Of a DNA stretch of 50,479 bases, positions 1-28,464 are shown one piece after another. The DNA lies in assembly GCA_021790515.1 (NCBI GenBank), contig JAJYHV010000003.1, positions 1 through 50,479 of the forward strand. The letters run 5' to 3'. Both the position numbers and the translations under genes were made by a program. The notes beneath the pieces are model-generated. The model saw only the letters and a program-made list of their open reading frames with translations, was not told the origin of the DNA and searched no databases. How positions within the stretch are numbered: the stretch's first letter is position 1; each line of letters starts with the position of its first letter. The DNA is from Pseudomonadota bacterium (GTDB lineage Bacteria; Pseudomonadota; Gammaproteobacteria; Burkholderiales; Sulfuriferulaceae).

Positions 1-61
1 TGATAAGTAATACTGGGGTCAATCTGCTTTCCTTCGTGTGCGGTGACTTTTTGAGCCAAGG

Positions 62-335
62 CTAGGAGCCTGTCGGACTTGATTCGTCGTACCCGCAGGA
101 TGGCTGCGTGGTGCAGTGCAAGGCGCGGAATGCGACGTTGTGTTGCCCACAACAAGCGGTTCGCAACGATGCAATGTGCCGCGCAGCCGTCCTGCCCTTT
201 GGGTTGCAACCGGAAATCGCGTCTGCGGCGTTGTAAAACTTGCCAATGGAATGACCATTCGCTGCGTTTTACGCCTTGCATCCATCGTTTTCTGGTTGCA
301 ACGGGCACGGCAAATCAAGTCCGACAGGCTCCTAG
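62..335. repeat. MITE-like palindromic element with perfect 23-bp terminal inverted repeats
   Basis: A 23-bp sequence starting CTAGGAGCCTGTCGG (62-84) is repeated as its exact reverse complement at 313-335, enclosing about 230 bp with no convincing gene. Smaller imperfect inverted repeats are nested inside: 98-109 with 185-196, 203-216 with about 290-303, and a short hairpin at 244-258, so the element could fold into a branched structure. The ends carry a TA inside the outer CTAG, which would fit a TA-duplicating transposase of the IS630/Tc1 type, but that is inference. No transposase lies in the window, so it would need one in trans. Ten bases of the terminus recur at 395-404. Confidence 0.7.
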
Positions 336-423
336 GTAACAATGAGATGGCGTGATTTTAAGCTATTTCTGTGACCGTTGCATTATACATTTACGTCGGA
401 CTTGTCTTGGCCTGATACATTGG

Positions 424-469
424 CAACTACATTAACAACTACATTAGTTTATCAACAACCTGTTATAAT
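424..469 (+). promoter_or_regulatory. Promoter region of the ArsR-type gene: 11-bp tandem repeat and -10 box
   Basis: An exact 11-bp direct repeat CAACTACATTA occurs at 424-434 and 436-446, a 12-bp period. A perfect -10 hexamer TATAAT follows at 464-469, with no good -35 hexamer at the right spacing. The repeats fall where the -35 region would lie, so they may be a regulator site. The bases between the upstream palindromic element and this point (336-423) show nothing else recognisable. Confidence 0.45.
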
Positions 470-506
470 CTGATTGTCATAAATTGGCGTCATGGATGGG
501 GGTACG

Positions 507-836
507 ATGTCTCGATTGGTGTTGAATCTTGAGCAGGTAAATCTGATTGACAAGGATGAGCATATCGAACAGGCATCGCGTGCGATGAAGGCCATGGCTC
601 ACCCGCTGCGATTGAAAATCTTGTGTATATTGGGCGATCAAGAAGTTAATGTGCAGGATATCGTGGATCGGGTTGGTACATCGCAAAGCAATATTTCCCA
701 GCACTTGGCCATTTTACGCGATAAAGGGGTGTTGCGGACACGCAAGGATGCGAATCGGGTATTTTATCGCGTGAGCGACACGCGCACGCTGAGGCTTATC
801 AGCCTCATGCGTGACGTATTTTGCGGGTTTACCTGA
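507..836 (+). CDS. ArsR/SmtB-family repressor with a SqrR/BigR-like cysteine pair
   Basis: A small winged-helix dimeric repressor of 109 residues. ATG 507 is preferred because a G-run (498-502) lies just upstream; an in-frame ATG at 492 would add five residues. The DNA-recognition helix region reads SQSNISQHLAILRDKG (about residues 59-74). The arsenic/cadmium ELCVCDL metal site is absent. Only two cysteines occur: C40 in helix 2 (LKILCIL) and C106 near the C-terminus. They are 66 residues apart, the same separation as the persulfide-sensing pairs of SqrR (C41/C107) and BigR (C42/C108). Persulfide or redox sensing is therefore a reasonable inference. The gene ends 8 bp from the convergent neighbour, so its target is not evident from context. 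Confidence 0.85.
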   Translation: MSRLVLNLEQVNLIDKDEHIEQASRAMKAMAHPLRLKILCILGDQEVNVQDIVDRVGTSQSNISQHLAILRDKGVLRTRKDANRVFYRVSDTRTLRLISLMRDVFCGFT

Positions 837-843
837 TTCGTTT

Positions 844-1368
844 TCAGGGGGCAGGAGCAGGGGCAGGGGCAGGGGCAGGAGCACCTGCTGGCATATTCAT
901 GTTTTGGTGCGGCATGTTATGCATCATGCGCCGGTGGTGCGCGCCGGCCATTTCGTTGAAGACGGCTTGCTGTTGTGGTGATAACTGACCATACAGGGTT
1001 TTGGCAGATTCTGCCACTGTTTTCATGCCGTTGGCACGGATAGCCATGGCGTCAGCCATCTGGTGCATGCGTTCCGGCGCGGTGAGTTGTTCATGATTTT
1101 GCATCATCTGACGATGAACATCAGCCATGTCTTTGGCTTGCGCCATGACACTGTCAGCAAAGCCTTTCCAGGCATCGTGCTGGTTGTCGGTGAGTCCGAG
1201 GCGGCTTTTGAGTTTTTCCAGATGGTGCTGCGCCATGCGAACCGGATCGAAGTGATCTTTCCATTCCGCATGGGAAGGCGCGGTGGCGGGTTGTGTGTCT
1301 GCAAACGCGGCGGTGACAAGGCCGAGCGAGAGCGTCAAGCCATACAGGGTATTTTTGATGAGAGACAT
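844..1368 (-). CDS. Spy/CpxP-family periplasmic LTxxQ-motif protein
   Basis: A secreted small helical protein of the Spy/CpxP family, which act as periplasmic chaperones or envelope-stress adaptors. ATG 1368 is chosen because it has an AAAGGA-type ribosome site and starts a clear signal peptide (MSLIKNTLYG..., cleavage near AFA-DT); a longer frame upstream lacks one. Two LTxxQ-like motifs are visible, LTDNQ (about residue 60) and LSPQQ (about residue 127), in a His/Met-rich helical body. The Met- and His-rich C-terminal stretch (HHRRMMHNMPHQNMNM) could bind metal. It ends in an Ala-Pro repeat from a 6-bp tandem repeat likely prone to slippage. It is last in the minus-strand run after crcB and the DUF190 gene. 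Confidence 0.75.
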   Translation of the reverse strand: MSLIKNTLYGLTLSLGLVTAAFADTQPATAPSHAEWKDHFDPVRMAQHHLEKLKSRLGLTDNQHDAWKGFADSVMAQAKDMADVHRQMMQNHEQLTAPERMHQMADAMAIRANGMKTVAESAKTLYGQLSPQQQAVFNEMAGAHHRRMMHNMPHQNMNMPAGAPAPAPAPAPAP

Positions 1369-4159: not shown

Positions 4160-4840
4160 ATGGATATGCCGTGCGTGACCCGTTGGCACAAGAGCCTGCA
4201 GTTGTCGGAAGATGCTTTGTTGCGTGTGGCTGCGCGTGCCAGCGAAGCTTTGGCGGCCAGGGGTGTGTTTCATATCGTGCTCTCTGGCGGTAATACGCCA
4301 CGTGAATTGTATATGCGATTGGCGACGTTGGAGACGGATTGGTCGCGCTGGCAGATATGGTTTGGTGACGAACGCTGTCTGCCGGGTAACCATGTCGAAC
4401 GTAATAGTCGTATGGCGGGTGAAGTATGGCTGGATGCTTCGCCCATTCCACGTGCGCAGATTCATGTCATTCCTGCCGAATCGGGTGCCAAGATTGCTGC
4501 GCAGCAGTATGCGCAGCAATTGGCCGGGGTGGCAGAATTTGATCTGGTGCTCTTGGGGTTGGGCGAAGATGGTCATACGGCCAGTTTGTTTCCGGGACAG
4601 GTGGAACAGGATTCGGCGCAGGATGCGGTGCCGGTTTTTGCCGCACCCAAACCGCCACCTGAACGGGTCAGTTTGAGCGTCCGTCGTTTGAGCCATGCGC
4701 GAGAAATACTGTTTCTGGTAAATGGTCGTGGTAAACGGGTTGCGGTGGCGGACTGGAAGGCAGGGAAGGCCATTCCTGCCGCACTGGTGTGTCCTGCGCA
4801 GGGCGTCGATGTGTTGATTACGCCGGATGCTTTGCCATGA
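4160..4840 (+). CDS. pgl: 6-phosphogluconolactonase (DevB type)
   Basis: Hydrolyses 6-phosphogluconolactone in the oxidative pentose phosphate pathway. Family motifs are present: the phosphate loop VLSGGNTPRELY, the WFGDERCLP strand-turn, and LVLLGLGEDGHTASLFPG, which contains the catalytic region. ATG 4160 (or 4166) follows the stop of the upstream gene by 4 bp; the open frame extends further upstream only inside that gene. At 226 residues it matches bacterial DevB-type enzymes. Its stop overlaps the start of the P-type ATPase (ATGA), indicating translational coupling. Glucose-6-phosphate dehydrogenase and edd/eda are not nearby, which is unusual. Confidence 0.93.
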   Translation: MDMPCVTRWHKSLQLSEDALLRVAARASEALAARGVFHIVLSGGNTPRELYMRLATLETDWSRWQIWFGDERCLPGNHVERNSRMAGEVWLDASPIPRAQIHVIPAESGAKIAAQQYAQQLAGVAEFDLVLLGLGEDGHTASLFPGQVEQDSAQDAVPVFAAPKPPPERVSLSVRRLSHAREILFLVNGRGKRVAVADWKAGKAIPAALVCPAQGVDVLITPDALP

Positions 4841-7184: not shown

Positions 7185-7276
7185 GGGAAACACGGATTCA
7201 TTCTCACATGGCCGCGACGGTGGTCTGGCGATTTGACCCGTAACGCGGTTCATGGAGGACTGAATCAGTGCTTCCC
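7185..7276. repeat. Dispersed inverted-repeat element, copy B
   Basis: Ends at 7185-7203 and 7258-7276 are complementary at 16 of 19 positions; the right end contains AATCAGTGCTTCCC. The interior blocks CGCGACGG and TTTGACCCG match copy A at 2259-2395. It starts 8 bp after the ATPase stop and separates that operon from the TPR lipoprotein gene. Confidence 0.6.
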
Positions 7277-28439: not shown

Positions 28440-28464
28440 GCTGGAGTTAATCAGCGCTTCCATA
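28440..28464. repeat. Possible half copy (D) of the dispersed inverted-repeat element
   Basis: GGAGTTAATCAGCGCTTCC closely resembles the right ends of copies A and B, but no matching left end was found. It lies just upstream of the nnrS ribosome site. Confidence 0.35.

Follow-up and report, generated by a model that had tools for sequence, protein, structure and literature searches.

Two MITEs of 160 and 169 bp in Methanosarcina acetivorans are tied to the IS1182-family insertion sequence ISMac2, and the columns of the table that lists them are read here as inverted ends of 26 and 25 bp and repeats of 4 and 0 (PMC3852290). Elsewhere in the same family, a Paracoccus element is listed with the values 16/16 and 4, which we read in that listing as ends and repeats (PMC3281130), and ISPsy36 is given as having GGCC repeats in the passage that mentions it (PMC8027508). 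Correia/NEMIS, ERIC, RUP and YPAL are summarized as small repeated elements, mostly with inverted ends and with strong folding (PMC2229807), and TIMEs as non-autonomous, mosaic elements (PMC4133298). The element considered here occupies positions 62-335 of the window, by which we mean the whole 50,479-nucleotide stretch of a Pseudomonadota genome (Sulfuriferulaceae) that was analysed. Like the ISMac2 MITEs it is short and assigned to IS1182, and those MITEs are close in length to hairpins of about 162 bp that share its ends; judged by description, it is set apart from them by its 274 bp, its Y shape and a core common to elements with other ends. Compared in the same way, Correia/NEMIS, ERIC, RUP and YPAL differ in their mostly TA termini (PMC2229807), and TIMEs in being Tn3-derived, according to the title of that report (PMC4133298), whereas the window element has IS1182-type ends. 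An ISAzo2-like element on plasmid 2 of Aromatoleum aromaticum (L361) has termini reading CTAG-CAGCCTGTCGG, with CTAG on both sides; it differs in being 1553 bp long and carrying a transposase, and resembles the MITE at the termini only. An exact-letter search of open-licence papers for the ends and the core returned nothing relevant (the one match of a 15-letter end was a primer), and titles and abstract beginnings of open-licence literature on MITEs, IS5, palindromes, cruciforms, the host genera and IS1182 held no description of this family.

We conclude that positions 62-335 are very probably a non-autonomous DNA transposon, a MITE moved in trans by an ISAzo2-like transposase of the IS1182 family. 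As such it is an ordinary MITE with a candidate partner family, and its modular build is what is unusual. The reading as a MITE, already proposed in a preliminary description of this DNA, is supported by the copies in the genome, by an insertion sequence family with matching ends and by the CTAG on both sides, each taken up below; the features of the locus are collected in Table 1.

Table 1. Features of the element and its neighbours, in window positions.
Feature	Positions	Strand	Basis or remark
Start of gpmI (phosphoglycerate mutase), neighbour outside the element	1..22	-	TTG start at 22; continues on contig C17
Whole putative MITE, both CTAG included	62..335	.	Inverted ends and genome copies; 274 bp
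CTAG, presumed 4-bp target duplication, left	62..65	.	CTAG pairs; empty site of a same-ended element
CTAG, presumed target duplication, right	332..335	.	CTAG pairs; empty site of a same-ended element
Left terminal inverted repeat	62..95	+	Outer ~19 bp match IS1182-family termini
Right terminal inverted repeat	302..335	-	Pairs with 62..95
Long hairpin forming arm 1 of the Y; stem 95-120/170-195, conserved tip TGCAAGGCGC...GCAACG	95..195	.	
Hairpin forming arm 2 of the Y; stem 203-219/286-302	203..302	.	
First GGTTGCAAC repeat, base of arm 2	202..213	.	Partner 294-305; arm 2 lost between the repeats in L033 and L034
Second GGTTGCAAC repeat	294..305	.	Partner of 202-213
ArsR-family regulator, neighbour outside the element	507..836	+	In-frame ATG also at 492

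Counted with the CTAG at each end, this short, gene-free element starts CTAGGAGCCTGTCGGACTTGATT... and finishes ...AATCAAGTCCGACAGGCTCCTAG. Its terminal inverted repeats of 34 nt are 91% complementary, and the exactness of the ends noted earlier holds for the outer 23 bp; the interior holds further inverted repeats, the stems of arm 1 (81%) and arm 2 (88%). With two hairpin arms inside, the entire strand folds as a Y on the terminal stem. A scan of the whole window for inverted pairs of at least 20 nt within 400 bp, using exact seeds of 11, gave one other, an 80% palindrome at 4486-4515. The predicted DNA folding energy is -92.5, against -48.8 (sd 3.4) in shuffled sequences (z -12.8), and the strand folded as RNA gives z -14.1 (plus) and -13.4 (minus), with none of 200 shuffles as good in any of these comparisons. 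The ORFs of 79-107 aa that cross the element run through a stop-poor palindrome (5 stops over all six frames, where shuffles average 10.4; P 0.022), which bears out the view that no gene lies inside.

The element sits between two genes that both read away from it, gpmI (with iPGM_N and Metalloenzyme matches, and a TTG start 39 bp from the element) and an ArsR-type regulator. Its description as lying just upstream of a regulator gene is thus accurate on one side, but gpmI diverges on the other. The accompanying suggestion that it could supply promoter or termination signals drew no support from window 1-900, where sigma-70-like promoters and terminator-like sites both numbered 0, while shuffles averaged 1.1 of each. 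Contig C17 also carries the left end of this copy, at C17:1-66, and next to it the left flank seen in the window. It thus shares 127 bp with C73 and supplies the missing flank with gpmI; the assembly break at window 1-127 is apparently due to the repeat itself.

Four full-length copies (on C73, C30, C10 and C19; 272-274 of 274 bp, 97-100%) are present in the window's genome, a 2.0-Mb assembly of 80 contigs estimated as 96% complete, together with partial copies that are truncated, internally deleted or hybrid, and the end motif occurs there, at up to 3 mismatches, in 26 places against 3 for the reversed control. The element is therefore multicopy, contrary to the prospect of a single copy conserved in place that had been raised as an argument against it. 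Whether its movement was recent, as first proposed, is answered in part: searches of the window's genome gave no matching transposase, and "recent" accordingly stands solely for the 97-98% likeness of the full copies to the one in the window. Element matches extend to 15 of 41 genomes (drawn from its own genome, genus and order, with its own counted), and full-length relatives are found at 81% in G009 and 72% in G010.

Among the partial copies, L033 and L034 are without arm 2, the junction falling at the GGTTGCAAC repeat at its base or close by (L033 is also without the first 18 bp), L032 is without arm 1, with the junction near CGTC, and L041 is without both arms. Losses of whole arms are what deletion across a hairpin would be expected to produce. 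Complete copies occur within and at the edges of coding sequences. The C10 copy (L003 615-2093) lies in frame inside a 492-aa ORF, with a net gain of 270 bp, or 90 codons, and no stop; the C19 copy lies at the N-terminus of a PAS-GGDEF-EAL ORF; and the right CTAG of the C30 copy lies at the stop codon of a 390-aa ORF. A general preference of terminal CTAGs for stop codons was considered and rejected. Such CTAGs ended an ORF of at least 100 aa in 37 of 140 cases, against 62 of 840 control strands, before genic control CTAGs were excluded; the apparent excess is explained by which CTAGs are free, and it disappeared once genic control CTAGs were excluded (10 of 63 elements, 23 of 93 control sites; P 0.23).

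The element's ends, CTAG followed by GAGCCTGTCGGACTT, are distributed far beyond this genome. The exact pattern GGAGCCTGTCGGACTTRA was found in at least 119 stretches of the species-genome collection; by our own arithmetic about 15 chance matches are expected in a collection of that size, so that lone matches mean little, and many however occur as inverted pairs. When 89 end pairs were measured, CTAG stood on both sides in 54 and not in the other 35, and the distance from AGCC to GGCT was 156-160 bp in 54 of the 89, defining a hairpin type of about 162 bp. The same ends enclose unrelated hairpins of about 162 bp in several phyla. By record title the pairs belong to Gamma- and Betaproteobacteria and, solely in metagenome-assembled records, to Nitrospirae, Spirochaetales and Lentisphaeria; misbinned contigs could explain some of those from outside the Proteobacteria. 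Some genomes are very rich in these ends: at up to 1 mismatch G044 has 103+109 and G041 50+54, with controls of 0 in both. Plasmids and phages are nearly devoid of the small elements. The window element itself had no match in 72,556 plasmid records, in which the two hairpin types tried gave 1 and 0 records and the c-type core (defined below) 1; one hairpin type was absent from 50,697 phage records, and the 16-bp end was present in 11 stretches of viral contigs. A Firestonebacteria record (L129, L094, L133) holds a 146-bp element with the same ends and another interior.

CTAG is its own reverse complement, and identical flanking 4-mers alone therefore do not prove a target duplication. Among the 35 pairs lacking CTAG on both sides, the flanking 4-mers were equal in 1 and reverse-complementary in 2. 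A direct comparison is afforded by a same-ended element (L182) in Pseudomonas cuatrocienegasensis, situated between genes that, from a reading of their ORFs, we take to be minC and minD. That region had a match in all 79 genomes searched (P. cuatrocienegasensis itself counted), and of 12 relatives aligned two (L297 and L299) have exactly the length expected for one 4-mer duplication, reading CAGATGCCTTTTTTGTG where the occupied site reads CAGATATCCTAG/element/CTAGTTGTG; the 4-mer there is CTTT, not CTAG. In L298 and L302 the site is one base shorter than expected, L300 and L307 have a different stretch, and the rest are more diverged. The preliminary description had proposed to look for a TA or CTAG duplication at empty sites; the CTAG pairs and the empty site are consistent with a putative 4-bp duplication, the empty site for the Pseudomonas element and not for the window copy. 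Terminal CTAGs that have decayed among the 89 pairs often read CCAG or CTGG (CTAGG to CCAGG, CCTAG to CCTGG). Very-short-patch repair would make these same changes.

The best-supported partner is the IS1182 family, since seven of nine IS1182 elements compared (of ten retrieved from the best matches to one transposase, and so not a random sample) are complete elements of 1517-1611 bp whose matching ends each stand next to CTAG; the other two have one such end each. The transposase in question comes from a G044 locus (L232 = L338) with the left end CTAGCAGCCTGTCGGGCTT, the right end not being seen on its contig, and its relatives occur in 2591 plasmid records. Plasmid-borne ends of this type read CTAG-(G/C)AG(C/T)CTGTCGG with CTAG at both sides, in Persicobacter, Aromatoleum, Pseudomonas aeruginosa, Polaromonas, Methylobacter, Mesorhizobium and Marinobacter, and the Aromatoleum element is annotated as ISAzo2 family. 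All four transposases scanned (L338, L360, L361, L366) scored above the NCBIfam IS1182 cut-off. In a BLAST comparison the likeness of the window element to IS1182 elements was confined to terminal stretches of 16-40 bp; one match that falls within a hairpin-type element is short (26 bp, E 0.02) and unconvincing. On the Persicobacter plasmid a 21-bp end match (1014361-1014381) adjoins the transposase match (1013164-1014327) and represents one end of an IS1182 element. One further locus (L344), at first taken for a transposase beside two exact ends, was set aside, the ends being remnants of MITEs.

A transposase with matching ends, sought in line with the earlier proposal, was thus located in the IS1182 family and not in the window's own genome, where profile searches with PF01609, PF05598 and PF13586 (G000, 96% complete) gave 0 matches; in two sets of other genomes, PF01609 was absent as well from 4 of 13 and from 9 of 28. 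With no IS1182- or IS5-type transposase found in their own genome the copies look orphaned, and the family is probably stranded there unless its partner lies in the missing 4%. Under the preferred reading, an ISAzo2-like IS1182 transposase acting in trans would have recognized the ends, 5'-GAGCCTGTCGGACTT, and insertion would have taken place at CTAG, with duplication of those 4 bp. Between the ends lies a Y-shaped palindromic core that does not resemble the internal parts of any insertion sequence compared. Its stems would be kept complementary as DNA, probably through template-switch correction within the palindrome, and whole arms are lost, as seen in the copies, through deletions that join the short repeats flanking an arm at its base; without its transposase in this genome, the family would now be decaying.

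Two other transposases have to be weighed against this reading. An IS5-group enzyme would also duplicate YTAR, a target that CTAG fits in the account of IS5 given in PMC10359306, and the window's genome has other elements with IS5-like ends; the ends of the present element, in contrast, are those carried by IS1182 elements, and among 92 transposase loci from 44 genomes (30+30+29+3, some overlapping, a subset of the matches) there was no IS5 element with these ends, nor a complete element with them among the families searched, so that we consider an IS5 origin very unlikely. Movement of a REP/REPIN-like element by a Y1 (RAYT) transposase would suit the hairpin units, their many copies in some genomes and two Y1 matches in the window's genome. 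The ends are long, however, not hairpins, and have CTAG on both sides; five element-bearing genomes are without a Y1 match (G004, G009, G010, G015, G061) and four element-free members of the genus have one (G012, G013, G014, G017); and an exact end pair lies near just 1 of 30 Y1 loci (L266, in G044, a genome very rich in ends). The presence of PF01797 (RAYT) being uncorrelated with that of the element, it was rejected as a partner, and we regard this explanation as exceedingly improbable.

A different kind of alternative is that the fold acts in a transcript, as a structured RNA or regulatory element, and that function in RNA accounts for the covariation of its stems. That covariation is pronounced. 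Over the 85 pairs of an alignment of 13 Y elements, pairing holds in 95.5% of cells, and 48 of the 85 have changed on both sides with pairing kept, against 23.7 (sd 2.8) in shuffles, none of 500 of which scored as high; sliding the partners against each other abolishes the signal, which is somewhat favoured by the derivation of the structure from the same alignment. If a fold is functional in a transcript, G-T mispairs should outnumber A-C on its strand. In 54 hairpin-type elements there were 196 G-T and 180 A-C mispairs, with no per-element strand excess (P 0.16). The Y type leans toward G-T (26 against 14 over 76 strand-neutral pairs), which speaks for RNA, but the figures become 34 against 25 once single mismatches are filled, and the strand preference is not clear; predicted structures that allow G-U inflate G-T whichever strand is folded (60 against 18, 66 against 26). 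The copies, moreover, sit in and beside unrelated genes, and an Rfam search of the window returned 0 families at the gathering threshold. We therefore judge a functional RNA highly unlikely. With no clear strand preference among mispairs, palindromy is probably kept at the DNA level, whether because the palindrome is corrected against itself or because the mobile DNA requires it.

The core of the element has a distribution of its own, and this raises a possibility that adds to the reading as an IS1182-dependent MITE rather than competing with it. Element positions 49-226 match, at 69-74%, elements with other ends that occur elsewhere in the genus and also in a different family of the same order (G031). 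These ends read TTAAGGGCTCGTTAATGAATA (set c) and ATTAGAGCCGCTTTCAATAGG (set e, L019); an element in G039 (L064) has ends CTAGGGAGTCTCTGAACAATG (set d) and a short, weak core match (69 bp, 74%, E 5e-4), and a copy of the core on an Azotobacter plasmid, 69% over 59% of a c-type query (E 3e-6), has ends CTAGGGTCTGTTGACGTTTTG (set f), which resemble the ends CTAGGGTCTGTTGACATTTC of an IS5-family element in G057. Within the window's genome, three hybrids (L037, L040, L042) combine one end of the present family with one GGAAGCGCTGATT end (set b), L042 having CTAG on both sides, and an IS5-family element in G041 has b ends of the GGAAGCGCTGATT type next to CTAG.

The Y core could, on this evidence, be a structured DNA cargo that has repeatedly gained the ends of different transposon families. 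It might then be viewed as a mobile parasite of transposons that spans families and orders, swaps ends (IS1182, IS5 and others) through hybrid-ended intermediates and has its stems rewritten complementarily as DNA, a view that we advance tentatively and with less than even confidence. In its favour are the alignment of cores between elements with unlike ends, the IS5-like ends of the Azotobacter copy and the hybrids. Against it, 60 transposase loci scanned yielded no partner for end sets c and d, the d example matches the core weakly and over a short length, the hybrids could be decay products, and the cores could be alike through ancient common descent, their ends having diverged and no exchange having taken place. 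The two arms appear as in-register inverted copies of each other in some elements (0 to 43 of 200 shuffles as good over the 13 Y elements), weakly so in the window copy (28 of 200). Elements are also found end to end: two MITEs in L120 with a single 4-mer (CCAG) between them, a plasmid element in L359 adjoining a type-a end with CTAG between, the G057 IS5 element in L258 beside a type-a-like end (4 mismatches), again with CTAG between, and in G001 a c-type element whose TTAA end adjoins an IS5-type element. This arrangement fits repeated use of the same target and, more speculatively, may offer a route for the exchange of ends.

The ISAzo2-like IS1182 transposase is a concrete candidate partner for widespread palindromic repeats, and with a partner named their mobility becomes testable. 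Were the swapping of ends real, a DNA structure would be passed on and would spread without being tied to the transposase that mobilizes it, and its copies would be natural material on how long palindromes stay complementary in bacterial chromosomes. As a separate observation, the hairpin interior of the plasmid element in L359 (Pseudomonas sp. MPC6) is 75% like that of the P. cuatrocienegasensis element, and its ends differ (GGAGGCTGTCCGAGAA). The window itself also contains small elements with GGAAGCGCTGATT-type ends as inverted pairs, at 2259-2395 (137 bp) and 7186-7275 (90 bp), and a lone end of this type at 28449-28461; at up to 2 mismatches the GGAAGCGCTGATT motif has 9 matches in the window against 1.5 expected.
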